Shown here in pieces: positions 1-42,900 of a DNA stretch of 64,000 nucleotides. How positions within the stretch are numbered: position 1 is the stretch's first letter; the number at the start of each line of letters is the position of its first letter. The notes under the pieces are model-generated. The model was not told where the DNA came from, ran no database searches, and saw only the letters and a program-made list of their open reading frames with translations. The stretch covers positions 6,081,415 through 6,145,414 of the forward strand of contig OZ025870.1 in the NCBI GenBank assembly GCA_964019415.1, read 5' to 3'. The translations under genes and the position numbers were made by a program. The DNA is from Ianthella basta. Its lineage: Eukaryota > Porifera > Demospongiae > Verongiida > Ianthellidae.

Positions 1-2460
1 TAGAGGGTGAGGCCCTGGAAGAAATGCTCACTATGTGGACACCCAGCAGTCATTCAAGGGTGAGACTACAGATGATTCCGAATTCCTTGATCAGATTGGC
101 TTATCATCATCCCCACCATATGAGGTGGTTCTGGAGATGAATGGGAAGAATGTGAAAATGGAGATTGACACAAAGGCTGCAGTATCCATCATTTCGAGCA
201 AAACGCAGAAAGCACTTTTCCTGGTGGCGAACATAGCAAAAGCGTCATTAAAGCTTCACAGTCTCACCTCTGAGCCTGTACCACTGTTGGGGCAGATGGG
301 CATGCAGGTCAAGTATGGGGAGTATGTTGGCAACCACACCCTCTACGTGGTTGGGGGCAGTGCTCCATGTCTGTTGGGCCATGATTGGCTGCAAGACATC
401 CGTCTCAACTGGTCCAACATCAGGACATTGTCAGCTCATAATAGTTTGCTGACACTCTATCAGCCGAACCAGAAGCATGCTGAAGTTTTCCAGCAGGAGC
501 TTGGTACCATCAGAGGGTTCAAAGCTCAGCTGCACCTGAAAGACGGAGTCAAGAAACAATTTCGTAGACCACGTTCTGTGCCGTTTGCCATTAAGGAGAC
601 AGTTGGCAAAGAAATTGATCACCAAGTAGAGAATGGTACACTGGTCCCAGTGGAGCATAGTGAATGAGCAACCTCAATTGTGCCAGTTCCAAAGAAAGAT
701 GAAACCATTAGTATTTGCAGAGATTTCAAGGTTACAATTAATACCCTTTGCCCTAGCCCAGTGAGCATTTCGCTTTTCTGACAGGTGGTCAGATGTTCAC
801 CAAATTAGACCTGTCTTCAGCATACCAGCAAATGACTTTGGACGAAGAATCATCCAAGCTCGTTACCATCAATACCCACAAGGGATTATTTTGGTATGTT
901 AGACTCCCATTTGGTGTAGCCTGGGCCCCAGCAGAGTTCCAATGCACAGTGGATGCCATTTTGAAGGGTATACCACAGGTAATCTGCTACCTGGATGACC
1001 ATCTCATCACTGGCCAATCAGATGCAGAACATATGTCCAACCTGGAGACTGTGCTGGAATGACTCCAAGAGCATGGAGTTAGACTGAATGAAAGGAAACG
1101 CCAATTTTTGGAGGAGGTAGTGGAGTATTTGGGGCACAGAGTAGATGCACACGGAGTGCATATCTCAGCAAAGAAGCTGACAGCCATTGCTGAAGCACCG
1201 AAACCATTGAATGTGCAGGAGCTCTGATCGTTCCTTGGCTTAATCAACTATTATAGCAAGTTTTTCCAGAATATGGCAACCATGTTACATCCACTCTACA
1301 TGCTTCTCCGGGAAGGTCAGCCTTGGAGATGGTCGCAGGACCGCAATCAGGCATTCAAGAAGATGAAGCTCACGGTAGCGCCAGTGCTAGTGCACTATGA
1401 TTCCAAGCTTCCATTGCGTTTGGCAAGAGATCCATCAGCTTATGGTGTGGGAGCAGTCATCTCGCACGTCTTGCCTGATGGATCGGAACATCCATTTGCT
1501 TTCACGTCTCAAACCTTGTCAGCTAGTGAGCGCAATTATTCACAGGTAAAGAAAGAAGCTCTTTCGCTGGTTTTTGGAGTTCCTAAGTTTTACCAATAAT
1601 TGCACGGCCGTCGTTTCACACTGGTGATGGACCACAAGCCACTAACAACTATCTTGGGATCAAAGCAGAGCATCCCAGCACTAGCAGCAGCTTGCATGCA
1701 GCTCTGCTTCAATCGGCCTATTCCTATGACATCCTCTTCCGGCCTACAGGTTCACATGGAAACACGGATGGTCTTTCCCGTTTGCCACTTCCAGATGATT
1801 CATTGTCCAGCATCCCCAACAATGCTACCATATTCAATTTGGCTCAAATTCAGTCGCTGCCAGTCATGTCATCTGACCTGGAGGCTGCCAGCCAGAGTGA
1901 CCTGTGTCTCGTGCACCAGCCCCTATTTCCCCTATTGCACAATCACAGGAACGGCTAGCATGCGAGACTAAGAGACCTGCTGTTGAGTGGAATTCTGCGG
2001 TACGTGAGACAAGGGTGGCCACAGCAGGTTCCAGTGATTCTGCACCCATATTGGCTCAAGAGAAATGAGCTAACGGTGGAAGAAGACACAGTATTGTGGG
2101 GAGTTAAGGTAGTGGTGCCCAGCAAGTTGTGCAAACGTGTTCTGAATGAGCTTCACCAGGGACACCCAGGAGTGGTCCAAATGAAAGCCTTGGCTCACAG
2201 TTATGTGTGGTTGCCTGAGTTGGAGGGAGAGTTAGGAAAACAAGCACGGTTGACAGTTTGTAACTTTCGAGATGGACCCTAGTGGGTTCCTGGGGTCATT
2301 GTCAAGGCGTTGGGGCCACTGAGGGGGTTGGGGGGGGGTCGTTCCACCAGCAATTTCTATGGCTGAGGCAGAGACTCAAATTGCTTTTACTTCGCCAAAT
2401 GCTGCACATCCCAGACGCAAAGTGGCGATGAGTCCACCAGCGCATCTCCTCCTGGTGACC
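1..2460 (+). pseudogene. Decayed Ty3/gypsy retrotransposon pol (protease, RT, RNase H, partial integrase)
   Basis: Read in order on the + strand: a retropepsin-like segment (about 130-420) where the usual DTGA active site reads DTKA; RT start (about 520-760); RT palm with the YLDD catalytic box (about 790-1060); RT thumb and connection (about 1063-1300); an RNase H-like segment (about 1400-1700); and an integrase zinc-binding motif with paired His (about 2110-2230). After that the frame jumps to an integrase-tail-like segment, so the integrase catalytic core is missing. In-frame stops occur near 665, 1060, 1226 and 1597, and there is a frameshift near 1720, so it cannot be active. The element begins before the window, and no LTR pair could be defined. 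It lies downstream of the last visible KIF21 exon on the opposite strand, so it may sit in that gene's next intron. Family call is from motif order; clade not assigned. Confidence 0.88.
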
Positions 2461-3010: not shown

Positions 3011-24396
<21,386 letters not shown>

Positions 24397-26153
24397 CTTT
24401 CTGAGTCCTTCTTATCAGCCTTACTTCTTCTCCTTCTCTTGTAGTCTCCAGCCCATGCACTCGCCCTCTCCCCTACAGACGGTCTCGCTGAGAACAAATG
24501 CGCAAATTAAGTAGCCGGCCCGCCTTTCACAGAAGCGATACACTTATTTATACTACAACAAAGGGTGTGTTGTGTATAAAATGTCCACTTGGCAATAGGT
24601 CGACCAGTAAAGACAAGCCAGAGCTCTTCCATCACTTGTTCGTTGCTCCTATACTGTTACACAGGTGCAATGTGCTGCTGTGCTATATTTCGTAAAGAGA
24701 GAATATCAAGATACTTCCAGAGCAGACCTGATGCATAAGCATGGTCAGGCATGATGCACATGCTTTGAAGCGGATAATTCGATTGGTTCGTTATCACGTG
24801 CAAATGTCACGCGACTAGGCCACTTCCCAGAACCAGCATGTTGCTGAGTGTGCTGTGTAGCCTACCATTGATTGACCAAAGCCCTGAATTCGGCAAGACT
24901 TCAATAGCGAATGTAGACTGTTACTTTGTCTTAAGTAAGTGACATTTGATGTGGAAGACCACGGCTATGACATAAGCCGTGTGTCTAGATATTTTACTAG
25001 GGGGGAGGTTCAAGTATTCGATGTGGGAGAGAGCATGGGTTAAATGCCACCCATCCGATCATACTAATTTAAATGTTGTGATGGGTTGCGTCAAAACGGC
25101 CATTCAAACAGTCTGTGCTTGGGAGCCAAGAACTTGGTAGTCTCGTACCTTGACCGTCGCCGCCCAAGGGGGGGGGGGGGCAAAGGGGTCTGGGTACGAG
25201 ACTAAGTACTTGGCAGTCAAGTGGACAGGTATTGTATAGCTTGGTCCATGATGCTTGCAATCTAGGTTGAATGCCTTAGAATAGAACCGAATCACTGGGC
25301 TATACGCATCTGAAGCTTGATTCGCAATAGACCTAAGGTCCAGCCAAGGTTAAGCTTTGGGGTAGGCCATTGCCTGATGAGACGTGAAACTGATCATTGC
25401 TGTTCCCACTTCTCTTCCACCCCTGCATAATAAGGAAACTTGAGTGTAACTGCCAGACTATCGTGCACCTCACCAAACAGTAACTGTTTTGCTCATAGTC
25501 TGTTTTATCATGGCAACACCCTAGAATGTATGATTCAATTAAATAGGTGGCCCAGTTTGTTGCGTATGTGATATGTGTGTGTCGCATTCACAGAAAGTGC
25601 ATCCTTGCATTGTCCTATTTCACTTGATGCCTCTACCTTTTGTAGTATTTGAAAGACCGAACTTGCTTACGTATTCATTCATGACACGTGAGGTAAGTGA
25701 AAGAGGATGTGGTAGGTTACTAATGGCTAAACTGCATAGTTTGTGTTATTTATTAGGTTATGCAAATGACCCTAATAACTTTCTCATTTTCATGATTGTT
25801 TTCAATGTTACCAAGAGTAGATAAGAGATGAGAGTATGCAACCGTGTATCCCACGTGTATAACAGCATTTTCTAGAATGACGTTGCAACACATCACACAT
25901 GGGCACGGTAACGCTACTTAACCCTATAGGCTTGAACTTTAAACTTCGCACTATGCACTCAGTACACGGAGTTAAAGTGGCGGCACACGGAAACTAAATG
26001 ACTTAAGCCAAGTGCAAGCTCTTTGCAGCGTTGTCACTGCCAGAAAGGCGAAGATGATGTGAGGATAGTTCGACGCTGTCTCTGAGAATACCAAGGGTTC
26101 TTCTTTTGCCAGTTCAAGAACATTTGCAAGTGTGTACGGACGAAGAACACAAA
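24397..26153. other. Upstream region of KIF21; no gene recognised
   Basis: This should hold the KIF21 promoter and 5' UTR (just above 24396). I see no TATA box at a convincing distance. The only structured element is a 70-bp foldback at 25138-25207. Open frames are short and lack recognisable domains. Confidence 0.5.
25138..25207. mobile_element. 70-bp foldback element (TAGTCTCG family)
   Basis: Left arm TAGTCTCGTACC and right arm GGTACGAGACTA surround a loop with a run of 13 G. ACTTGG occurs just outside both ends (25132-25137 and 25208-25213), a possible 6-bp target duplication, the same length as at 58193-58771. Confidence 0.7.
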
Positions 26154-26421
26154 ATGGAGGAAGACGACGTGAACGACGAGCTTTCGCATGCTGTAAGGCT
26201 TAAAGATTACTTATTTCCCCTCTACCACGGTAGCAATTTGAACAAGAGTCCATAGACTAGTACACAATGTGACATTGGGATTAGGTGGAATGCGAGTGAA
26301 TACGCGCAAACTTTAACAGTTGATTGCAGGCATCAGGCGCTACAAGGAGACAGGAAAAGCAAGCCAGGTATGAAGTCCAACCACTGCTCTAGGTCCTCTG
26401 AGAAAGGCAGCCTGCTTCAAG
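26154..26421 (+). CDS. Possible first exons of an unrecognised small gene
   Basis: Three short open segments can be joined in phase with usable splice sites: 26154-26192 (ATG, 13 codons, GTAAGG donor), 26330-26366 (TTGCAG acceptor, GTATGA donor) and about 26393-26421 (CTCTAG acceptor, GTTTGT donor). The conceptual N-terminus is acidic, then basic (MEEDDVNDELSHA..., RRQEKQA). I could not extend it convincingly, although two further open segments with acceptors lie at about 27091-27170 and 27265-27325. No family recognised. It may be chance. Confidence 0.22.
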
Positions 26422-28569
26422 GTTTGTAGCAAAAGAAAACAGCTCTTAAACTGTGCCAATTTCTGTGGCGAGTAAACTCGTCATTTGCGCTTACCTGTAT
26501 ACAAATTTATGACGAGTAAATTCATCATCCACGCCTAAATGGTTAATATTCTGATGTAATGGATGAATACGTTGACTCGATCCTCCAGTCTGTACGTACT
26601 CAGCATTGATTGTGATGCTCTTCAGTTTGTTAGTTGGGAGTTTCAACGATGTTCAGGACCAGCTGGTTGACTGTCTCCATGTGTGACATGTTGCTGCGTC
26701 ATTTTAGAAAAATGCTGTTACGGGTGGGTATACACGGTTGCACATTCTCATCTTATATCTACTCTTGCCGTTTCACAGTGTACTCACTTTTGTTCAATTT
26801 TCAAAACTATTGTTGGAAACTGCATAGATCCCATTGTCATGGTAAATGGTGTCTAAACACTGTTTCTAAATGTCGTAAAAACCCCAGCTGTCCTTTCGCT
26901 CCGTGGTCTCTTCCATCCAGCTGTGCTCTATTTTGAACGTGCGACAATCGTGCCTTTGCTCTAAATATCAATTTAGAGCATGGGCATAACTTAGGCCCTT
27001 GGTCTATAGCAGAGAAACTGCAGCTGTGATAACAATAGTAACGCCACAACATATGATGCACAGGTTGCCCAGCTTACTTGTTTCATCGTGAAACAGGATA
27101 AAGCAACAATCTGGCTACGAACCAGAACCAAGAAAGGAACTGGTTACAAGCTGGGAACAGGCTTTGGTTAAAGGACACTGCCCTGGGAAACGCTGTGGTT
27201 GATGTGGCTGAAGGTGAGTAAGCTTACGCCTAGCTGATGCACTTCATTCACTGCCGACCTGTAGGAAGCGTCTCCTGCGAAATGACCAACCCAAGTTGAG
27301 ACCAAAACTCATCCATTGTCAGAAGTACGTAGCTAACTGCTTCTGGAAGACGCATGATGACTCAAGTACGAGTAGGTAAACTGGTTTGCTGCCGGCTCCT
27401 TGCCCAATCATATGGGAGAACGATGGACGTTGCTGCTTCTTAACTTTCGCAGCCAGTATGCTGGTTCGCATACAACAAAACAATGACATATCATTATGAG
27501 CATATCACAAAACAATGGCATGAAGAACACTGTTCATAGCATTGCACTCTGGGAATCAATTGAAGTTCATTATCGTAACATGAAAAGTTGCAGACAGCTG
27601 TGTAGTAGCAACCAGAAATAAGCCAGCATGGCCAGCTGAGCATTTTCAGTACCATAAAACTTTGTGAGCTTTGAAACTTTCATTTTGACATGTATGAGAA
27701 ATGTGTTATTAATTATTTTACTTAAAATTAGAGCCTGTTGCAGAACTGGAGGTGTGTTTGCCACCATTTCCCAGAAAACTCTAAAGCTAGCTAAACTAGC
27801 TAAACTGGCCGCTACGGGCTTTTTCTTTGTCAAGGTATTGTGCATTAGCTGTGGGTATCATATCTACAGGGAAGTGTACAGCACCAAGTACTGGAATACA
27901 TTTCGTGTGCTTCACCGAGTAGGAGAAGGTCCACAGCAGTAGCCATTTAGCTTTGATCTGTGCTACTCGTAACCAGTAATTTCAATTTTGGACAATATTT
28001 CCATAGGCAACACTGCTTTGCTAGGTGCAATTTCCATTGTTAGATACTATTTCACGAAGTGTGTTGACGCAGTACCCTAGTAACCATTGCCGAAATTGGA
28101 TGTCTACATGAATTATTTTAGAGTCAATTCGCAATTTCAAGGCAAGATCATGGAAAGTTGGCAATAATGGAATTTGAAAGTATGCAGTAACATTTGCTTC
28201 ATGCAATAAAAGCCACTTTGTTGTGTGGTAGCCTGACCATTCATCACAAAGGCAAAATTGTATGAGAAGTGGATGTACACATCCTCTTGTTTTGTCAGTT
28301 TCGTAGCAAAGCCTCAAGAAGACTAGTTCATCATCTGCTGAGCTAGCCTGCGTGTAGGACTTCTCGTCGGTCATGGAAACTGCTTGCCAAAGAGAACAGT
28401 AATAATCCAGTATCTCAAGTACAATACAACAATTAAACCCAATCAATCAGCATCATACTTCCTATATATATATATATATGTGCACATGCAATTGTCTGAG
28501 GAGAACAAAGAATATCTGATGTTTGCTGCCATAATCATAATTCGCTGACACATAATAAGATTTACAGTA
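26422..28569. other. Stretch without a supported gene
   Basis: Mixed AT-rich sequence. A 141-codon open frame on the - strand (28021-28446) has no recognised domain, no flanking splice signals I trust and no family resemblance. A few possible small exons on the + strand are noted with the 26154 entry. Nothing else stands out. Confidence 0.4.
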
Positions 28570-29020
28570 CTGATTAGAAATACTGTACCATAGTGAGTGC
28601 GTTCAGACTGCACCTACGTGCGAGCAGCGTGTGGGTACGCGCGAGTAAGCGCAAAGTTAACACTTCAATACGTGTAAAAGGGCCGCTGTTTCGTCATCGC
28701 TCTGACGTCATAGTAAAAATGGACGCAGGCGGCAGCATCTATGCGCAACTAGGTAATAGGTGTTAATGCCTTGTACGCAATGACGTAGCGAACGAAACTT
28801 AATACAGAACGAAGATGCATCGTATCTGATCGAGCGTCGACGGCTTTATGTCAATTTCAGAAGAGAAAAGCCTGTTTAAAAGCCCTTGCCGTTACAAGAA
28901 TTTTGTATAAAGAATTGTGCTTACAAGTGCGCGTAACTGCGCGTACCCGCATAACACGTACGTGCACGTGCAGTCGCCAGCGTTTGGTGTGCGGTTTTAT
29001 GGTATAGTATTTCTAATCAG
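28570..29020. mobile_element. 451-bp MITE with TA target duplication and long subterminal inversion
   Basis: Ends read CTGATTAGAAATACT then G/A then TACCATA, 22 of 23 bases matching in inverted orientation, with TA immediately outside both ends (28568-28569; 29021-29022). Inside the TIRs a CpG-rich zone (GGGTACGCGC, TACGTGC) recurs inverted, so the arms extend imperfectly for about 100 bp each. The non-coding interior and TA duplication fit a Tc1/mariner-like MITE. Confidence 0.88.
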
Positions 29021-29335
29021 TACAGTAGAGTGACATCTCACCACCACCTAATGTATAGTCTTCCAAACGGACCTTTACACCTTCTGCCACCATGCACCAA
29101 GTTTGGTTTGGAGTTTCTTGCTGGAGTTTGACAATATTGCTTCGGTGCATTGCACAAAAATGACGAGTGAGCGGATTGTGTGAATTTGTACATTAAGGCA
29201 GTGATCACATTCCCTATGGTAGATGATGCACAGATCTGTCCTCCATTGTGCTGTCAGTTAACTGCCTGAGGATCATGTGAGCAGTGACGAGATTCCAGTG
29301 AAGGCCCTGATTTCCTCTGGCAATGGGGCAGAGTG

Positions 29336-29510
29336 CACTGTAAAAACTAAGTAGCGAATGTCACTAACAAAAGTTAGTGAAACTCTTGCCGCATTAGTCA
29401 CTAATATTTGAGTAGTGAAGGTCACTAACTTTTTAATTCACTACTCTTTACTGGTGAACGTCACTATTGAATATTGGTGAGATTCACTAACAATATGTAG
29501 TGATACAAGT
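29336..29510. mobile_element. Possible hAT terminal and subterminal repeat region
   Basis: Begins CACTGTAAAAACT, a hAT-like terminus, and then carries at least six scattered copies of CACTAAC or GTTAGTGA-type words in both orientations over 150 bp. Clustered short subterminal repeats are known as transposase-binding sites in hAT elements. It lies about 200 bp beyond the stop of the hAT reading frame at 29711. No matching end was found beyond 33077. Confidence 0.5.
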
Positions 29511-29710
29511 TTCAATTGTACAGACACACTTTTACACCTTTCAATATTCTGTCATTTCAATGTCTATGTGGTCACAGCTTCAAGTATTTAAACTCATAGC
29601 ATACAGAACTTACACAAGGCTACTGAAAAAGGTACAGTATTAAACTGAATTTGCTAATCAAACTGAAAGCATACAACACTTACACAAAAAGCTACTGAAA
29701 AGGTTCAGTA

Positions 29711-32700
29711 TTAAAATTTTCCAAAATAGTTCATGCAGCGGCTGTTTGCTGCCACAAAGTCCTTGGCAACCGAAGTCAGATTTAAAGATTCAGTTTGTTC
29801 TGAATGCACATAAAGTAGGAACAAGTTGTTAAGTCGCTGCTGAGTCATGGAAACTCCTCAAAAAGGTCTTTATTTGACGAAGGGAAGAGAAAGACCTCTT
29901 AGCAGTAGCACTTGTAACAGGGAATGTGAGGTACGCCCAGATCAGTTTTTCTACTTCGCTGAGCATGTCCCTGACAATGGTACTTTGGTTGAGTGTGTCA
30001 GCAAGTGTCCGCACATTCGTCACTTTCTTTACACTGACAGCAATCAATCAATCAATCACCACAGCTTATCTCCTATGCAGGAGGTCGCCGCTATCTTTAC
30101 AGTATTTAAAAATTTATGTCATAGTTCAGTGTAACATCTACGTATGCATAGTCTATAGTCAATATGTAGTATTATTCAAATCTGTAGCTAGAAACTGTCA
30201 ATCCATTTCTTTCTAGGTCTTCCTCTTGGCCTTTTCCCTGCAATTTCCTCAGTGTACACCTTCACTAATCTGTTGTCTTCCATCTGCTCCAGCTTCTCCT
30301 TCCATGCTCTTTGTTTCCTTTTTACTTTCTCCATCGCCTCCTCTTGTCCAACTGCCTCTCTCACATCTGCATTTCTTACTCGGTCCATTCTTGTCACTCC
30401 TTCGACTCTTCTCAAGTAAGCCATCTCTGTTGCCCCTAGTCTGCTCTCATGTCTCTTCATCACTGTCCATGTCTCACTGCCATACAGCATGGTTGGTAGC
30501 ACTATCGCATTGTACACCCTCATCTTCGTAGCTTTCTTCAACTCCTTCCTTTCCAACACCTCCTTCCGCATTGCTCCTATTACTCTGGCTGCTGCTCCCA
30601 CTCTCTGTTGAATTTCCTCTTCACATGTCCCATCTGCACTCAGGATAGCTCCTAGGTATTTCATATTCTGCACTTGTTCTATCTCTTCCCCATCCACACA
30701 CACTTTGCATTCTTCTCCTTTCCTACTAACCATCATCACTTTAGTCTTGCCCCAATGTATCTTCATTCCCCAGTTACTCATTGCCTTCTTCAACTCCCTC
30801 AAATTTGCCTCCATGTCCTCCTTCCTCTCTGTTAGTAGCATCACGTCATCTGCAAATAGCACTACACCCACTTCAGTAGTTGACATCTTCACACCTCCAA
30901 CAAAATTCTCCATTCCTTCCCTCACTATCTTATCCATGAAGACATTAAACAGCCATGGTGACATGACACAGCCCTGCCTCACTCCTTGTGTTATTGGGAA
31001 CCAGCTTGACAATTCATCCTTTACTCTGACACACCCTTCACTCTTCTTGTACAATGATCTAATGGCCCTCAGCAGTCTTCCCTTCACACCATATTCCTCT
31101 AGCACTTTCCATAACTTATCTCTACCCACCCTGTCATACGCCTTTTCCAAATCCACACATGCCATCACCATCTTCTTGTTCTTCTCTATCATCTTCTCAC
31201 TCAATTGTCTTATGGTAAAGAGCTGATCTGTGCAACTTCTGCCCTTTCTAAAGCCCCCTTGAGCCTCAAGTACCTTGCTCTCTGTCACGCTTCTTATCCT
31301 TTCATCCAGTATCCTCGCATAGGCCTTGCTTGGGATACTCAGCAGGCTTATGCCACGGTAGTTCTCACACTTTACTTTGCTTCCTTTCGCACGATTACAG
31401 CTCGTCGCCAGTCTTCTGGTACTTGTCCATTCTCCCATGCAAGGCTCATTATCCTATGTAACCACTTCACCACTACAGTCCTTCCAGCTTTCAACATCTC
31501 TGCACTAATTCCACATATACCTGGTGACTTTCCGTTTTTCAGCTTCGATATGGCCACTTCTACTTCCTCAACTGCAATTGGTGCCCTCTCTTCTTCATCA
31601 AGTTGCACCTCCCTATCTACTTGGTTACCATTCTGGCCTTGGGCATCTTCTTGCAGTAAGTCACTAAAATAAGCCTTCCATCGGTTACGAACTCCCGCAT
31701 CATCTACTATCAACTGGCCACTCTCATCACATATTTTCCCAGCTACATCTGCTTTATTTTCATTACACATGCGGACCCTACTCCAAAACCTTTTCTGATT
31801 CTTTTGAAAGTCATCCTCTAGTGATCTGCCAAGCTCAATCCACTCCTCATTTCTTGCTTGACAGCAGTACCCGCAAAAACACTGCTGACAGCCTCTGGCA
31901 ACATCAGCAGCTGGACTTTCAAACGAGCAAGATCGATCTTTCCTTGAAAGTATTTGACAACAGATTCTGGGATTTCTAACATATCCTCACCATTTGCAGC
32001 ATCAAGCAGCAGTGATTCCACCACACAGACAAAGGCAAGATCAGATTGATCAAATCGCTTCTCTACTTCACCGCCAGCATTGTCGAAAGCTTCGAAGTAG
32101 GCTTGACGATACTTCTCTTCGGGAGATGTGTAGGGGTGTGGCTGGGTTCCTTCATCAAATCTCCTGGGTACTCTCCGGGGACAGGGTAGGACAGGTTCAT
32201 CAGTCTAACCGCTTGACGACTTTAAACATCCTGGTAAAAATCAGTGAAGGCTGCCTCACTTCACAATGAAGTATAATGTGATGTCAGGAGCTGAGCACCT
32301 CTGGTTCCTTCAGCAACAGCTGTGTCCTTTGCCTGAAGGTTTGTTGAGAACTGCTCAGCTGCAGAGAAGACCAAATGTGCAAGCTTCAAAATCGTCTGGC
32401 CACATATGATAACGATCTCATTGATGATTTCAGGAGAGATGTAGTCCCGCTTTTCAGCCATGAACCCAGTGGTGCGCAATCTTTAGCTTGCAGCAGAAGC
32501 AGCTGGTATAGGTTACCCTCAAAAGCAGCACTGTCTTCATGGTGACCACGGAATGGCAAGCCCTGTCTGGCCAAAGAACGAACACACTCCAGTACCTTCA
32601 ACATCATGGCACGATGGTTCTTCTGGTCTGCATCATGCTGCCTACTCAGTTGCGCTGCAACATCTGTGGTGCTGGACTTGGCAGCAATCTTCATCATTGC

Positions 32701-33077
32701 CTCGCGGTGCATTTCACTCTTTTCATGCTCAGCGAATCGCTGCAGAGCTTTCTTCCATTGGAGAACCACCCTTCTACAAATGACGAATTGTAGCGCTCGG
32801 AGAAGGTCACCAAGTGCTGGCTCCTTGCATTGCAGCACACTTGACAAAAGACTTTGTATGAGGATTTGCACACGCTGATCCACGGGTGTTTTGTATACCA
32901 GCTGGGTTGAATAGATCTAGAGTACGATGTCTGCTGCCCATTTGGAGTTTTGGATCCTTCCAATTCCTTAGGTTGATGGGAGACAGCATTGACATGGAAA
33001 CTGCAAGTTTGATCCCTTCTACTCCTGGTTATGCTTGGATTCACTGCAGTATGGCGTATTGTAATGATTTTCTTCAA
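29711..33077 (-). pseudogene. hAT transposase (TTF-zinc-finger/ZMYM1-like), broken and split by a LINE
   Basis: Segments on the - strand, in order: an N-terminal zinc-finger part (about 32720-33077) with a VFCQVC cysteine pair and, in another frame, HEKSEMH; a DUF4371-like core with RQGLPFRGH and YISPEIINEI (about 32270-32720); and a linker with EVEKRFDQSD (about 31867-32060). The frame is then interrupted by the LINE at 30043-31858 and resumes as the C-terminal hAT dimerisation block (AYLTFPVTSATAKRSFSSLR, about 29840-29960), ending with an FGKF tail and stop at 29711. At least three frameshifts separate the parts, so it is inactive. The zinc-finger type and dimerisation block point to the hAT superfamily, near proteins annotated as ZMYM1-like. 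Confidence 0.88.
30043..31858 (-). mobile_element. 5'-truncated LINE (non-LTR retrotransposon) inserted in hAT
   Basis: Encodes a reverse transcriptase of the LINE type: NYRGISLL, GFRKGRSCTDQLF, the FADDVMLL catalytic box and a C-terminal RGRPRKKW block, with the stop near 30188. A frameshift at about 31390 separates the N-terminal RT portion from the rest. The endonuclease end is absent, as expected from incomplete target-primed reverse transcription. The 3' end is a short (ATCA)n tail at 30043-30058, read as (TGAT)n on the element strand. The 8-bp TGACAGCA occurs at both junctions (30035-30042 and 31859-31866). Clade not assigned; the simple tandem tail is reminiscent of RTE-like elements (inference). 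Confidence 0.92.
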
Positions 33078-34955
33078 TTTCTACGCAAACACTTTTCCTA
33101 ATAATGAACCTTTGCTGACATTTTGGCCGCGATGTTGTGGCCTTAATCAGAGCATATACTGAGTAAGAACAATATGGCATGTCACTGAAGTATAGCCATG
33201 CAGGTTGGCTAGCATCTGTTGCTGCTAACATCATAGGGATCAAGTGATGTCACCTCAACTTCTATTCATTTGCATCAGTGTACCCTCAGCATGCTTTGTT
33301 TAAGTATGACCTATGTAAGGATACAGCAGCACAACCCCAAGCTGCCCTCCTCGGTATCCGTTATCACTGCCAGGATTGCAAACAAGAGCATCTGTGCACC
33401 ATTGATTTCCCGCAATGTTGAGCATGTGTAAACACTGAGAATAGTCTGATTGTCCTCACCCATCCCTCCTGCAACCACTACTAACGCATGCATTGTGTAT
33501 AGTAACACCAGGGTGTAGTTGCATGGTGGCCACAGGTGGCATAGTTCTTGTTACCAACCTTGTCCAGTCCACGAGCTGACAGGATGGTGATGGTACTGGG
33601 TGATGCTTCTCCCCCTATGAGAACTACCAGGCTCTTGATTGAGACACCTTGACTCTTGTACTGTGTGGTGGGTGGGTGGCAGTGTACTCAATGTGCAATG
33701 ATTCACATTTCATACCTGCACTCAACAAGCTGAATCAACATCACCACACAAGCTCAATCCCCCCACAGACTGATGTACCCATGTGCTTGTATGTTATGCT
33801 TCTGACTTCAAACGTGCTCCATCTCCATATCAAGATCTCCATAATCTTAGGGCCGCAGCAAGAGATTTGACCTCGCTTTCATCCATAGGCACTGATATCT
33901 GCCTCCTTAACCTGAGCTTGGTGGGGGATGATTGAATCTGCCATATTCTCTAGCCTATAATGTACCTGCTTATAAACCACTTTGGTGGCATGGGGTGGGG
34001 GCTTGTCCACTGAAAGGGCCATCACACCTTCACTATTGCTGATGACATTGTCCAAGTCCATGGAATGGTTGAGCAACTTGTATGTGCTGCTGGCATGCAC
34101 ACAGACATTCTAGTGTTCAACCGCGCCCTGCTGTTTGCGACTTGAGCTCTGTGAGTCATAATGAGATCCTTGATAGACCACCAAGTGTAACTTGACAGGC
34201 TAAGGATATTGTACACCTCATACAGTGGACATCTCAATGAATCATCTGCAGCCAAAATTGAGCTATCTTATGGCTGCCAACCTAATACAACAGCACCTAG
34301 ATCGCCATTTAAGTTTCCCATGACACTTTATCAATCAAATGCTATCGTCACTCAGTTACACGTGTTATCTGTCGAGTACAGGACAACAGGAAAGGAGTCT
34401 GTCTTCAGTTAGTGCTGGTACGACTTGCATTCACTATTTAGCAGTGGATGCTCATAGAATCTGTATGCATGCAAGAATTGGAAGCAGAAAGTGGGCTACA
34501 TAACTCAGGGATATGAAGGAGTTAAATGGTATTTTGAATAATGTAGGCAAGAAATTGAATAATGTTGCATTTTTGCAGTTGGGCACAAAGACATTGTAGC
34601 ATATGGAATTTGAAACCCAACTCCCAATGCATATAAAACTATTTATTTATTATATTTATATTATGCCTTTGCACTTTCAAAGCTTCTTTCTGCATATTTC
34701 TGAAGTCTATTAATCTATCGATCCAAAAAAAAGATGATTCGCTTTACATATCTTCAAATTGGCAAACAGTTGGAAAATCTCCTAATAGATGAAATTGTTC
34801 TATGTTTTATGCTTCTTTGTGCTTGTATGTATACAAGCCATTTTATCACTTAGTGTTTACTTCTTGTGTGTGTAACAGTGATCAGCTGTTACTTTTCCTT
34901 CCTTCCTTCAGAAATTGCACTGAAAGGCAGCCAGCAATAATTATCACTTGTCTTC
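33078..34955. other. Gene-poor stretch upstream of the DEAH-RBR gene
   Basis: No recognisable coding segment. Probably contains the promoter and 5' UTR of the gene at 34956. A pyrimidine-rich CCTTCCTTCCTTCAG ending at about 34912 could be a splice acceptor for a 5' UTR intron, placing the start codon 44 bases into the last UTR exon (inference). Confidence 0.45.
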
Positions 34956-37900
34956 ATGGCGGAACAACAGAGAACTCCTTCCAAGCCAAACAAAACTTCA
35001 GTGCATTTTCAAATTGAAGAACGCACAACTAAGGAAACTTTTGTGTCCTATTTGTGTGGGATCTTATCGCTATCTCATTTACGTCTGACAAGATGGGCTC
35101 TTGATGAAAATGGAGTCATTTTGGCAGAAGCTGAATTTGAGAGCCTAAGTAAAGCGAAGCAGGTTGTGAAGGTACTGAGCAAACGAGGGAAGGGATTTGA
35201 AGCATCCCTTCAGGAATTCACATTTCCATCTTTCATCTCCAGTATTGACAATTTCAAGGAAAGCATTCACAAGAAAGAGCAACAGCTCACCGTGGTCCAC
35301 AGCCAGAAATTGGTGAATTTGAATGAACAGCTGATGGCCTTGAAAATCCCCAAGCGTTGCTCTCCTGAAGAGTTTGTAAGGCTCAACCACAAAAAGCAAG
35401 TTGTCCAGGAGAAGGTTACAGAGTGTGAAAAGCAGCAGCTAGAATTCACCAGATACTGTGAACGACTGCATCCAGAGCTTGAACACCTGAAGTCATCAGT
35501 TTCAAAAGCAAGGAAGGTGGTGGAGAAGAATCTTATGACAATGCGGAAGAACTTCGGCCGTGAGTGCTGTAGATTCGCTAAAGCTCTGCCAATTTATGCA
35601 AGAAGACAAGAAATTGTTGAGATAGTGTCACGTCAGCAAGTGACCATTCTCATTGGTGAGACAGGATGTGGAAAAAGCACCCAGCTAGTCCAGTATCTCT
35701 ATGATGCAGGTGTAGGTAGTGGAGGGCTTATTGCGTGCACTCAACCACGCAAAGTAGCTGCTGTCAGTCTCGCGAAGTATGTCAGTGAAGAAATGGGTGC
35801 TAGGTTGGGTGTAGAGATTGGATATAAGGTTGGCATGCAAGGTGGCAGATTTTCAGAGCACACTCAGCTTGTGTTCATGACTGACCATGCTCTGCTCAAT
35901 GAGTGTGTGGAAGACAGAAACTTCACCAAGTACTCATGTATTGTAGTTGATGAGGCTCATGAAAGAAGCCTTCAGACTGACATTCTCCTGGCACTTATTA
36001 AACAGTGCTTGCCACATCGCCCAGACCTAAAGGTCATCATTACGTCAGCTACCATCGACCCTCAGCAGTTTATTCAATATTTTGGAACAGACGACCCAAT
36101 TTTGAGAGTTTCGGGGAGAACCTTCCCTGTGAGTGTAATCTGGAACCCCCTGAATATTCCAGATTTGCCTAGTGACACAGGCTATTGCGATAATGCAGTC
36201 AAAATGGCAGAAATTATTCACCATGAGGAAGCTGCAGGTGACGTGCTAGTTTTCCTAACTTCAGCTGCTGAAATTGATCGTGCTTGTGTAGCCATGACAG
36301 AGAGAGTTGGAGACACAGCAGTAGTGCTGCCACTGCATGGAAAAATGCAGCCTGATGATCAGCAAAAGGTTTTCCAGGTTTATGGCTTGCGGAAAATTGT
36401 CTTTGCTACAAATGTAGCTGAAACATCTGTCACTATTCCTGGTGTGAAGTACATAGTGGACACTGGTTTGGCGAAGGAACTCTTTTTCAATCCGAAAAAG
36501 AATATGAACTCTCTCGAAGTTCGGCCCATTAGCAAGAGCTCAGCTGAACAGAGGAAGGGGAGAGCAGGACGGACCAGCGAGGGAAAATGTTATCGACTCT
36601 ACAGCATTGAAGTTTATGCCGCAATGACTGAGAGAACTGCACCTGAGATTTTGAGGGTGCATCTTACTCATGCAGCTTTAAAGCTCTTTCAGCTTGGGGT
36701 AGGTAACATTCTACATTTTGACTTTGTAGAAGCTCCTAGCCAGGATGCTCTGTGCAAGGCCATGGAGACACTTGAGTTTCTTGAGGCGGTGAAGGACAAT
36801 GAATTGACCGATCTTGGTAAGCAAATGGCCGTATTGCCTATCGACCCTCAGTTCGCCAAAATTCTTTTTCTAGGAGCTGAAGCTGGTATTGGTCATGAAG
36901 CTGCCATTTCTGTTGCCATGTCGAGTTGTGGAGGAGGTGTCTTCTTTCGGAGTGACGAAGTGAAGGAGGAAAGTGACAAGAAGAAGATTCAGTTCTGTCA
37001 CCATGGGGGTGACCAAATGACAAACCTCAATGTATATTGGAAGTGGTCCCAGGAGAAGAAGGAGGATCGCAATAGGTGGTGTGTAGATAACTATGTCAAT
37101 GCTAAGACAATGCGATTAGTAGAGGAGGTAGTAAAAGAGCTCAGGGTTATCTGTGAACAGCAGTTTAAGATCATGCTGCATGCAAGAATTCCAGATTTGC
37201 AGTTGGCGGAGGAGAAGCTGCCAAGACTGTACTTCAAAGTTTTCATGCGTAACATCAGTGTCTTCCTTGGTCACGAACGAGTTGGATATGTGACTAAAGA
37301 CCTTGCTGGTGAGGCTGTGGTAATCTTTCCAGGCTCAGCCCTTCCTACACTAAATGATTCTCCTCAATTTCTTGTCTTTGAGAAGACCCTGAAAACGTCA
37401 CAGCATTTTCTCTTGCAGGTGACTCCAGTCAAGGAGGAATGGGTGGAAGAAGCTGTTGCTGCTAAGCAACTCTCTGCCCACCCAAATGATACCTTCAAGC
37501 AGTATTTTGTGTCTCCAGTCCGTGTTCCACGTATTGGACAAGAAGTCTTCAGACTTGCATTCTTTGGCAAGGGAAAGCTGCAACAACTGAAGCAGAATCT
37601 CAGCCATACCTGCAATGATACGCCTCACACTTTCATTATTCAGAAAGACAGAGCTGCAGTGTGTCTGTACAGTCAGGCTCAATACCACGTAGCAGCGAAG
37701 ACAATGATTGAAGACATTGTGAAAGGTGTCAGAACTGAAATGAGAGTGAAGGTGCTTGAATGGGGAGTGACACGCAAGGAAGATGATGTTCGGATTGTCC
37801 TAGGAGCAGGAGGCTCCATTCAGAGCATAATGATGCCAGATGAATATCGCACTTTGATTGTGAAGGGACAGCGCAGTGAAGCTTGGACAAGTGAGTTCAC

Positions 37901-39920
37901 TGGCCTGTTATCCAGTTATGGTAACATTGCCAGTGTCAACCTTCGAGCTGATATGTCATCAACTTTTGTCACATTCTGCAATCCCGATGATGCTGCAAAG
38001 GCTTACTCAGCAATCCAGCCTCTTCTAGAGGAGGGAATCACAGTTTATCCATCTATGAAGAAATCCAGTGGAGAAAGCTCTCAGTTCACAGTCAGAGTTG
38101 AGTGGTGCCGGAGAAAAAGGCAAAATTTTGCTTTCTTAACATTTGAATCACCTGGAGATAGCTTGATAGCCCTGGCCAGTTTATCCTCTCTTATTGTTGC
38201 CGGATCAATTCTGAAGTTCCGCCCTTCCAAAGATGGGCAGCCCCAATTATTTGTCACTAACGTTGGCCAGCAAGTCTCTGAAGAAGCCCTTAAACAAGCT
38301 GTGGAGTTGCGACTCCAGGCATATGACATCTCTGTTAAGGCAAAGATTGGTTTAGAGAAAGGTTACCCAACCACACCAGAGCAATTGCAAGCCTATAAAC
38401 GGCAGTTGGACACTGTCATATCGCGGTATGCAACCAAAGGACAGTACACCATTGACTTGAAATCACCACAACTTCACCATCCCATGCATTTGGCTTTTGT
38501 ACATTTCCACAACCCTGAGGAAGGCCACAGGACATTGACTGAGCTCTGCCATGAGCAAATTGGCGATAATTTTCTGCAGGCAAAAGCTTGTCTGTCTTCC
38601 TCTATCAGCTATCCTAAGAAAGTTTTTGCTGCTCTCAAAGACACCATTGATGAGGCCATGGACGAGATTCGCCGAATGCACAATGGCTCAGTGGCAGTAA
38701 AGGTACTAGACTCACCAAGTCATCCTACCAATTTGGTGAAGCTGACTTCTAATGATGTCCATGCATTCATTCAGGCTAAGAATTTGCTCAACGCTGTTTT
38801 GCAGCCAGATACTATTCAGTGCTCATCACCTGAGCTCCAACAGTACCTCCTCAGGAAAAGCACACGAGAAGAGTTGGAAGCCATCGGCACTGAAACCTCT
38901 ACGTTCATCACTGCAGACCTCAGAATGATGACAGTGAACATCTATGGATCCGAGGGAAACTGCACCCAAGCTAAGGTGGAGCTGAAGAGAAGAATTGAGG
39001 CAAAGATTCAGCCTGGTGTAGTATGTCATACCATTGAATTGAAGGCCCCTGGGAGGCCCCCAGGGTTAATGAAATTCATTGTGTCCAAGTTTGGAACTGA
39101 CTTGAGCTCACTGCTGGAAAGAGAGGGTGTTAGTGATGCAACCTTGGATGCACGCCGGCACATTCTCACACTGTATTGTACAGAAGAATCACTCAAATCA
39201 GTGCAGGAGCTGCTGGATAACTTCAGCTCCAGCACACGTTCGCAGAACCCAGCAATGCAGTCACCCGATGAGGAAGACATCACCTGCTGTGTCTGCTACT
39301 GCCCTGTGGAAGAAGTAGCAGAGCAGTGTCGACTAGAATACTGTGGGCACTTGTACTGCTTGGACTGTGTCCAGGTGCAGATTTCACCCAATGCAGTCAC
39401 CTTTCCTATCACTTGTGCAGCTGAAGACTGTGGACAACCATTTGTTTGGCATGATTTTGAAAGTCTTTTCAAGAGGACAAAGTACAGATTTGAAGTTCTG
39501 CTGAAGTCGTCTCTTCAAAGTTACATCCTTGCTCATCAGAAGGAAGTGAAGAGTTGTCCTACGCCAGATTGTGATATGATTTACAAAGTGTCCACAGCTG
39601 AAAATGGACGTCCTTTCCTTTGTTCTCATTGTGGAGTGCGTATATGCACAAAATGCCACGTACAATACCATGATGGGCTGTCATGTGCAATGTACATGTG
39701 TGGAAAGGATTCAGATAAAGATTTTGAGACATGGCTGAGACAGGATCCAGACAATCGCAAGAAATGCCCAAAGTGTACAACCCCCATTGAGAAGATTGAA
39801 GGATGCCAACGCATGACTTGCAAGTGTGGTGCTCACATTTGTTGGTATTGCTTAAGCTACTTTCCAAACTCTCAACAGTGCTATGCCCATTTGCGGACGT
39901 CTCATGGAGGGTTTGCATAG
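34956..39920 (+). CDS. DEAH-box RNA helicase fused to an RBR E3 ubiquitin ligase, single exon
   Basis: 1,654 residues in one uninterrupted frame. Order: N-terminal helical region (about 60-215); helicase core with GETGCGKS (about 233-240), TQPRK, DEAH (332-335), SAT (364-366), TNVAETSVTIPG and QRKGRAGRT (about 530-538); HA2/ratchet (about 610-700); OB-fold (about 755-835); RRM-like modules (about 965-1025, 1042-1110, 1094-1195); KH-like segments (about 1240-1425); and an RBR module with RING1 (about 1445-1490), IBR (about 1530-1575) and RING2 (about 1603-1650). The presumed catalytic Cys of RING2 is the Cys in IEGCQRM at residue 1617. It would unwind or translocate on RNA and attach ubiquitin through a thioester relay. 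The closest architecture I know is the plant DEAH11/DEAH12 group and similar unnamed invertebrate proteins. The start has G at +4. No introns, unlike the neighbouring kinesin. A possible ATTAAA poly(A) signal is at 40031. Confidence 0.93.
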   Translation: MAEQQRTPSKPNKTSVHFQIEERTTKETFVSYLCGILSLSHLRLTRWALDENGVILAEAEFESLSKAKQVVKVLSKRGKGFEASLQEFTFPSFISSIDNFKESIHKKEQQLTVVHSQKLVNLNEQLMALKIPKRCSPEEFVRLNHKKQVVQEKVTECEKQQLEFTRYCERLHPELEHLKSSVSKARKVVEKNLMTMRKNFGRECCRFAKALPIYARRQEIVEIVSRQQVTILIGETGCGKSTQLVQYLYDAGVGSGGLIACTQPRKVAAVSLAKYVSEEMGARLGVEIGYKVGMQGGRFSEHTQLVFMTDHALLNECVEDRNFTKYSCIVVDEAHERSLQTDILLALIKQCLPHRPDLKVIITSATIDPQQFIQYFGTDDPILRVSGRTFPVSVIWNPLNIPDLPSDTGYCDNAVKMAEIIHHEEAAGDVLVFLTSAAEIDRACVAMTERVGDTAVVLPLHGKMQPDDQQKVFQVYGLRKIVFATNVAETSVTIPGVKYIVDTGLAKELFFNPKKNMNSLEVRPISKSSAEQRKGRAGRTSEGKCYRLYSIEVYAAMTERTAPEILRVHLTHAALKLFQLGVGNILHFDFVEAPSQDALCKAMETLEFLEAVKDNELTDLGKQMAVLPIDPQFAKILFLGAEAGIGHEAAISVAMSSCGGGVFFRSDEVKEESDKKKIQFCHHGGDQMTNLNVYWKWSQEKKEDRNRWCVDNYVNAKTMRLVEEVVKELRVICEQQFKIMLHARIPDLQLAEEKLPRLYFKVFMRNISVFLGHERVGYVTKDLAGEAVVIFPGSALPTLNDSPQFLVFEKTLKTSQHFLLQVTPVKEEWVEEAVAAKQLSAHPNDTFKQYFVSPVRVPRIGQEVFRLAFFGKGKLQQLKQNLSHTCNDTPHTFIIQKDRAAVCLYSQAQYHVAAKTMIEDIVKGVRTEMRVKVLEWGVTRKEDDVRIVLGAGGSIQSIMMPDEYRTLIVKGQRSEAWTSEFTGLLSSYGNIASVNLRADMSSTFVTFCNPDDAAKAYSAIQPLLEEGITVYPSMKKSSGESSQFTVRVEWCRRKRQNFAFLTFESPGDSLIALASLSSLIVAGSILKFRPSKDGQPQLFVTNVGQQVSEEALKQAVELRLQAYDISVKAKIGLEKGYPTTPEQLQAYKRQLDTVISRYATKGQYTIDLKSPQLHHPMHLAFVHFHNPEEGHRTLTELCHEQIGDNFLQAKACLSSSISYPKKVFAALKDTIDEAMDEIRRMHNGSVAVKVLDSPSHPTNLVKLTSNDVHAFIQAKNLLNAVLQPDTIQCSSPELQQYLLRKSTREELEAIGTETSTFITADLRMMTVNIYGSEGNCTQAKVELKRRIEAKIQPGVVCHTIELKAPGRPPGLMKFIVSKFGTDLSSLLEREGVSDATLDARRHILTLYCTEESLKSVQELLDNFSSSTRSQNPAMQSPDEEDITCCVCYCPVEEVAEQCRLEYCGHLYCLDCVQVQISPNAVTFPITCAAEDCGQPFVWHDFESLFKRTKYRFEVLLKSSLQSYILAHQKEVKSCPTPDCDMIYKVSTAENGRPFLCSHCGVRICTKCHVQYHDGLSCAMYMCGKDSDKDFETWLRQDPDNRKKCPKCTTPIEKIEGCQRMTCKCGAHICWYCLSYFPNSQQCYAHLRTSHGGFA

Positions 39921-42900
39921 CTAGGTTTGTACTTCTAACATTTCAGACAGATTTCACAATTGTTTAATACCATGTAGTTGAACTAACTATCTCATAGTCT
40001 TTTTATTTATTGTGTACTTCATACGAAGCAATTAAACACTTCCTTTAACAATTCCTGTTATGTGTTCGTAAGATGAATATAATTATTTGCAGTTGATCAT
40101 GATTGCGATGCATTCATGAGTCAATCTAAATTTAGTGGATAATTATGCGTACATATATAAACATAGCATTAAATTGCATTGAACAGCATGTATATATGAT
40201 GGAAAGCTTTCAGTAACTGCAGCAGTCACGGCATGCAAACTTCACAAGACTTAGTATAATTACACATAAGTGATGGCAGTATATACGTAGATTTTGCAAA
40301 GACGCATGCATTATATACCTGCAAGAGCATGATGATCATGAGTATGTGAACGTGCACAGGTCATTGAAGCAGCACTGATCATGATTCATGTACAAACAGC
40401 CAGAGCTTCTGATGTGTATGTATAATTATATATAACATGGCTATAATTATTTGCAATAGCACTAGCTATACTTATATATCGATCTCTCCAGACATGCTTG
40501 AACATAATTTTTCTTTATATATATAATTATGGTAATACAATGGCATATGCGTGATTGATCGATAATTATATGCAGAATGATAAATCACTTGTCATTATTG
40601 TGTATATCAGGATGTTATATATGGTATGATTGTATCACGGCATATCCCAAAATGCTGTTGCATTTCACAATGTCATATTGCATGCATCTTCTGTCTCACC
40701 AAACACACAAGCAGTTCAGCAAAGGGACTGCTTTCATCTTCTTTCCCTGGAAGGAATTCCATGACATGAGTGCTTGCATCAAAGCCTACTCCTTCTGTAC
40801 TAGTTACGAGGAATCAGCTGAGTCCATGGCCAATTGGTAGAAGGTGAACCGTCCCAAGGAAGAGTCTTTAAGCAGCATGGTGTGCCGCTCTACCTTCAGT
40901 GGCGTCTTCCAGCTTGCTAACAATGTGATGTAACTTGATGTTTGGACATTCATTCAGTTCTTCCAGCCAACAGATGGAAGCAAACACTCTGTGATGATAA
41001 GCTGCTTGATGCTGGATCATGGCCAGCTTCAAAACTTCTTCCTTATAACACTATCTTCACTACGGATGGAAGTGACTGGGGCTACTGCATGCGTGGACTG
41101 TTGCGGTTCTATAGGAACTGGTCCTGCAGAGCGACTAATGGCTTTTATAGAATGTGATGTGGTATTGCTCTGGGGCTGAAGAGACAATACGGACTAGTAC
41201 ATGAGTAATCGTAGAGAGAGGTTGGAGCCACAGTCCTGCCTCCCCTTGAAATGAATGAAAGGTGCACACAAAGACGGACTGGGTAAGACTCCAATGGTCT
41301 AAAGCAAGGAATATCATCAAAAAACTGCTGAAAGAATGCACTGATGACAGTCCAAAGTCAATTGCAATTCTGGTACTGGTTGCAAAGGCTGTAGCTAAAT
41401 GTAGCCATTTGAAATGCACGTGTAGGGGAATTCCGTCAGTAAGTCTAGCCACCAAAAATCAGCTCAGCTAAAAACTGTCTCCAGGAGGAACCACTTTGAT
41501 GATTCAGTGGATCTTAGAATATAATTTCATTTCGTTAGCCAGCTACCCTGCATTCAGCTAGCTAGCTAGCTAGAATGTACTCACTATTCTGTTTCCATAA
41601 TTATGCATGTGCCTTATGTTATATAGTGCAACAGCAATGCATCTCACATGGTATAACATAGCAACTGGACTGCATTGTTATTCACTGCAATTATGCAAAC
41701 GTGCATGTCTATTGTGTGCCTATAACATAGGCACACAATATTATATATACCTAGCTATAAAATTATTTTGTGTCTAAATGCCATACATGCATGCACACAG
41801 TGTGTTAAGCAAATCAAGCATAAATAACAAACAGGCACATTTATATAACTTAGTCACACATATGCAGTCTACGAATGTGTGGTGTCTGTATATTTGTGCC
41901 CAATTCGAATTCAGGGAGGAGTTAGCTATAGGGTGATCCACAGCAGATCCATAAAGGGAGCACCAGTCCTGAAGTATTATGAGAAATCAGGCAAGATTAG
42001 TGACCTGGATTAATCCTCTTAAAGTGTTACTGTTTAATTTATTACAATTTTCTTTATTGCACTTAAGGAATGTCTGCATGTCCACTCAATCCTTAAACCC
42101 CTGAGAGCTGGATGGCATTTCATGGTTTCTCAGGGAAATAGCGAAGAAAACGTAGACATAAATGGACACACAAACTATTAATCTTGATTATACTCTTGAC
42201 TAGTTATATTAGCAAACATAATTTTAGTAGTTCAGTATAGTAGCCATGTGTCATACACACTAAAGCAGCTAGGCTAAGCTAATGCTGCAGTTACTGGCCA
42301 TCCATGTGTTCCTTGAAGTCCTTCATCACAACACGTTGCATTTCATGAAAGGTGAAATCGCTATATCTGGTAGAAATTCATCAATCACTGCTGTGCTAGC
42401 CACATAATCAAAGTAGGGCCACTGGGTGAAGTCATTAGTGCCATACTGGTATCACTGAATGGTGGCACAGTAGTCGTCAGTGTAGTTCCACAGCTGGTGG
42501 GTCTGGAACCAATTTGGGGAGATCTATGTTACATCACTCTTCTTTACATCAAACTACTTCAAAGGCACAGCATCATTGTGGTCTGTGTGCTTATTGAAGG
42601 TCTTGATGGCCAAGCCACAGTGAAGCTATAGTCTGGCCCACTAGACTGTCCCTTAAGTGCCTGGTAGGTGTGGAAGGGAAGGGAATATAATATGTTATAC
42701 GGTCGAATTGGTGTTCATTCAAGATTTCATAACATTGTTATAGCAAATGGAATTAGTGAATGGGTGGGTGTGGGTGTTGTGAACAATTAAGTCAGATGAC
42801 AGGAGTATGCACAGCTAGTGCTGAAGGCACTATAGCCCTAGGCCTCCTGCTTCACTGATATACACGCATGCACAGTATATACTGTATGCATCCACACAAT

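Follow-up and report, generated by a model that had tools for sequence, protein, structure and literature searches.

The locus analysed here raises two questions: what kind of protein is encoded by its very long open frame, and how this frame, devoid of coding introns, came to be present in three copies. The window (the whole stretch of 64,000 nucleotides that was analysed) corresponds to C3:6081415-6145414, C3 being the contig, and the genome searched comprises 209 Mb in 96 contigs. The gene is almost certainly an animal member of the Helicase subfamily (Plant I, DEAH11/DEAH12) of RBR ubiquitin ligases. It is an intact, ordinary member of a known, sparsely studied family, to which a small local duplication is the only addition; the novelty resides in the presence of two intact copies and a pseudogene within 97 kb of one contig. 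The best explanation is probably that of a working Helicase-subfamily RBR ligase, locally duplicated at the DNA level, that would act by the mechanism proposed below.

Domain organization of the open frame

The copy present in the window, called copy A, shows the following features, all of them on the + strand:

34956..39920, +, single open frame of 1654 residues, DEAH helicase-RBR ubiquitin ligase (copy A)
34995..35210, +, N-terminal RRM-like region of beta-alpha-beta-beta-alpha-beta order, residues 14-85
35223..35582, +, predicted long helices, residues 90-209 (helices 90-128 and 137-209; pLDDT of the block 75-96)
35577..37469, +, DEAH helicase core, HA2 and OB-like region, residues 208-838 (phmmer, Pfam)
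37860..38012, +, RRM, residues 969-1019 (RRM_1, 33 bits, cut-off 20.7)
38109..38273, +, possible further RRM, residues 1052-1106 (phmmer match to PUF60, E 0.026, not significant)
38832..38987, +, possible first KH, residues 1293-1344 (KH_DEAH11_2nd, 22.6 bits, cut-off 27)
39030..39230, +, KH domain of the DEAH11 type, residues 1359-1425 (KH_DEAH11, 63.5 bits, cut-off 27)
39285..39431, +, RING1, residues 1444-1492 (Cys/His positions; aligned to ARIH1)
39555..39686, +, IBR, residues 1534-1577 (Pfam IBR, 48.5 bits, cut-off 24.3; best stretch 1516-1577)
39765..39905, +, RING2, residues 1604-1650 (EGC aligned with GGC of ARIH1)
39804-39806, +, codon of the catalytic Cys1617 (alignment to ARIH1)

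The single frame of 1,654 codons described in an earlier note on this DNA was recovered at exactly the same coordinates and strand. Its ATG lies five codons into an open stretch that measures 1659 codons from stop to stop. A chance open frame was ruled out, the longest one in 30 Markov-generated windows being of 244 codons.

The full set of DEAH motifs previously claimed is present: GETGCGKST (Walker A, residues 234-242), DEAH (332-335), SAT (364-366) and QRKGRAGR (532-539). The Pfam families that reach their cut-offs are KH_DEAH11, Helicase_C, IBR, DEAD, RRM_1, AAA_22, HA2_N and HA2_C, while OB_NTP_bind, KH_DEAH11_2nd, IBR_1 and IBR_2, together with some chance-level rows, stay below them. 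The NCBIfam matches to HrpA/HrpB all fall below their own cut-offs. Among solved structures, the helicase core (about residues 208-838) matches DHX8, Prp22 and Prp43, and the phmmer match of residues 208-838 to DHX8 (6hys_A) has an E value of 1.2e-128.

With respect to the RNA-binding modules, the profile search that had been proposed for the RRM/KH and RBR folds recovered RRM_1, KH_DEAH11 and IBR over their cut-offs. A second KH and a further RRM are possible. The RRM shows an E-H-E-E-H-E order at residues 966-1032, in a predicted model with pLDDT below 55 there; the model of residues 841-1424 is poor (mean pLDDT 39) and was used for strand and helix order only. The model of the N-terminal region gave no Foldseek match at E <= 0.001, its rows mixing RRM with ACT-like folds. 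In VIA the first two rows are RRMs and the remaining ones are tied.

The complete RBR with a catalytic Cys1617 was also confirmed, by the IBR profile, the Cys/His positions and the alignment to ARIH1. The ARIH1 match among solved structures covers 196 of the 214 residues queried (residues 1441-1636), and the CPKC...EGC stretch ends at C1617.

Membership of the Helicase subfamily

Copy A combines a DEAH core with HA2, a C-terminal RING1-IBR-RING2 with its catalytic Cys and a KH of the DEAH11 type, which sits between the helicase and the RBR (Pfam KH_DEAH11). The likeness to DEAH11/DEAH12 that had been noticed is borne out by KH_DEAH11, which occurs in a single frame with the helicase, the RRM and the IBR. 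The KH_DEAH11_2nd profile scores 16.4 bits in the second intact copy (copy C), also below its cut-off. No match to KH_DEAH11 was found in 14 control genomes.

Proteins with separate parts of this architecture are known. DHX8/Prp22 and DHX15/Prp43 resemble copy A in the helicase core, HA2 and OB-like region (residues ~208-838) but, to our knowledge, possess neither an RBR nor a DEAH11-type KH. ARIH1 (HHARI) has an alignable RING1-IBR-RING2 with its catalytic Cys in line with C1617; however, we know of no helicase in ARIH1, and its Ariadne domain is absent from the Pfam list of copy A.

The Helicase/Plant I subfamily is old. According to excerpts of PMC2904391, it occurs in unikonts and bikonts and has been lost repeatedly in animal lineages; the Arabidopsis DEAH11/DEAH12 proteins described there share with copy A a DEAD/DEAH helicase and a C-terminal RBR. 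Copy A also carries the Pfam KH named after DEAH11. Two soybean members, as described in part of PMC3904995, are longer than 1700 residues and contain DEAD, helicase C and HA2, the latter common to copy A, with the RBR about 750 residues away; in copy A, the RBR follows the helicase core at a distance of about 600 residues. The same source cites the presence of the subfamily in animals. Unlike the plant members, with which the comparison is by description, copy A is an animal gene of 1654 residues and one coding exon.

The excerpts seen of the plant literature on the subfamily give no molecular function. AT5g10370 is labelled as a Helicase RBR in that literature, and such At numbers (AT5G10370) are presumably paired with the names DEAH11/DEAH12. 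A canola gene similar to AT5G10370 appears in PMC7064481 among blackleg-resistance candidates, a listing that does not amount to a functional test.

Two contig collections were scanned with six exact peptide patterns, which catch close relatives only. The viral_contigs and genome_contigs sets yielded 3 and 24 pattern-matched stretches, respectively, and none was a relative by tblastn. An IMG/VR contig found with a RING2-based pattern was dropped, since its best tblastn match to the protein had an E value of 0.12.

Three copies on one contig and their origin

Three full or large-part matches to the protein (A, B and C) lie within the 97 kb mentioned above. The relevant features are:

34897..34911 of the window, +, pyrimidine tract and AG resembling a splice acceptor, present in all three copies (A, B and C)
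22640..40167 of the window, no strand assigned, block shared with C3:6194872-6213712, which carries copy C (blastn)
~C3:6174030-6179048, copy B, decayed pseudogene, interrupted by stops and frame changes that fall mainly in the first third
C3:6208483-6213465, copy C, intact, 1660 residues

KH_DEAH11 gives three matches in the whole genome, one per copy (4 candidates scored), and 3 of the 27 IBR rows correspond to the copies, the others lying elsewhere. The remaining genome matches come from remote DEAH helicases and RBRs, whose identity over short stretches does not exceed 57%. Copies A and C are identical at 1550 of 1654 aligned residues (94% protein identity). Copy C has the same Pfam families as copy A (residues 1-1659 of 1660 searched), its RRM passing for the whole protein but not as a single stretch alone.

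Copies A and C diverged under purifying selection. Over 1654 codons, dS is 0.135, dN 0.031 and omega 0.226. None of the 17 windows, each of 100 codons, reaches an omega of 0.5. By region, it is 0.12 in the helicase, 0.16 in residues 841-964, 0.24 in the RBR, 0.27 in the RRM region, 0.34 in the N-terminus and 0.39 in the KH. Branch values estimated by parsimony are 0.19 for A, 0.23 for C and 0.41 for B (1192 codons, those alignable with two pieces of B, with the B stop codons dropped and 11 ambiguous codons excluded). Copies A and C appear to be working genes, and B seems to have decayed after being constrained for part of its history. Two apparently working copies here accompany a dead one, in a subfamily for which losses from several animal lineages have been reported. 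It is conceivable, though improbable, that the working copies read different RNAs, as the nominally higher omega values of the KH and N-terminus with respect to the helicase might suggest.

The high identity between A and C and their long common block could also mean that the assembly kept two haplotypes of a single locus next to each other. This reading is very unlikely: no A-C matches of at least 200 bp were listed beyond the block ends (about 5000 N being unsearchable), pseudogene B sits between both copies, and the A-C dS is the value given above.

The earlier note had suggested retroposition, since the frame is intronless. The A-C block is broken by gaps into pieces of 88.5-96.6% identity (blastn matches of at least 200 bp). 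The blastn match of B to A starts 83 bases ahead of the ATG and ends 17 past the stop, the likeness by alignment extending somewhat beyond these limits on both sides. Because homology runs past both gene ends, the copies most likely arose as DNA, and retroposition finds no support in them. The acceptor-like site precedes the ATG by 44 bases and hints at a candidate 5' UTR intron; if this putative acceptor is used, a retrocopy of the spliced message would carry no such upstream DNA, an argument that bears on the copies and not on their first ancestor, which lies outside the comparison.

For that ancestor, a start as a retrogene, in which the message of an intron-bearing gene was reverse-copied and integrated at this site, would agree with the coding frame without introns and with a reverse transcriptase frame at 30191-31453 (- strand), although a nearby reverse transcriptase says little. 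We consider this origin unlikely. Copies B and C likewise show no coding intron and have flanking DNA in common with A upstream and downstream, and the acceptor-like site is conserved across the copies. In addition, no further KH_DEAH11 match that could represent an intron-bearing parent was found in this genome, and the distant DEAH helicases, which match in short pieces, do not qualify as a parent carrying RBR and KH. A clam DEAH12 gene served as a single-copy marker, and its fragment from draft genomes (2.9 or 3.9 kb, both lengths being stated in the part of PMC8765752 seen) could be compatible with long exons in the family.

Proposed function and genomic surroundings

We infer RNA binding, ATPase activity, ligase activity, substrate and pathway from the families to which the domains belong. 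The RRM and KH modules would hold an RNA, along which the DEAH core would move, or which it would remodel, using ATP. The RBR would accept ubiquitin on Cys1617 from an E2 docked at RING1 and transfer it to a protein on the RNA, or to the ligase itself, so that stalled or faulty ribonucleoproteins would be marked. The mechanism as a whole is offered tentatively, at a little short of an even chance. A coupling of RNA handling to ubiquitin transfer would be reasonable and not new: the subfamily is already described in PMC2904391, whose reference list includes a 2006 paper with a title that connects ubiquitination to RNA metabolism.

Ribonucleoprotein quality control is our first choice among pathways. 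The protein might also be imagined as an RNA sensor of antiviral or immune defence, with ubiquitin as its signal, given its RNA-binding and ligase domains and the local duplication with pseudogene formation, both of which are often shown by immune genes. Nevertheless, such a role has only a small chance of being correct: omega ranges from 0.12 to 0.39 by domain, with no sign of an arms race, and no functional study of an animal subfamily member was among the matches listed in the open-licence literature. Antiviral sensing is considered weaker than quality control because no domain has an omega near 1 and nothing else speaks in its favour. The gene by itself leaves the view of the family unchanged; two intact one-exon copies in one animal would be simple to clone and to remove from the genome.

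Regarding the surroundings, no Rfam or tRNA match was found within the window, and a Pfam search of ten frames selected from its 253 gave a family in two, one of them below the cut-off. The reverse transcriptase frame (RVT_1, 150.5 bits) falls in 28498-33265, where the block of copy C has no match of at least 200 bp. A Gag-like aspartyl protease frame is found at 11-664 (+ strand; 26.1 bits, slightly below the Pfam cut-off of 28.2). A tandem array of 82 copies of 21 bp occupies 16685-18410, inside two open frames that are 659 and 666 codons long. It is adjoined by kinesin-like motor motifs (18518-20163, - strand); since these motifs are about 15 kb from the ATG, to place the frame "next to" a kinesin gene, as previously done, was loose wording. 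Another tandem array, with units of ~162 bp and identity above 99%, lies at C3:6204589-6206375, some 2 kb upstream of copy C. Elsewhere in the genome there are 34 Wnt matches, all above the cut-off, which mark the genome as that of an animal, Wnt being specific to animals; a cluster at C16:1991483-2026924, entirely on the - strand, suggests tandem Wnt genes.
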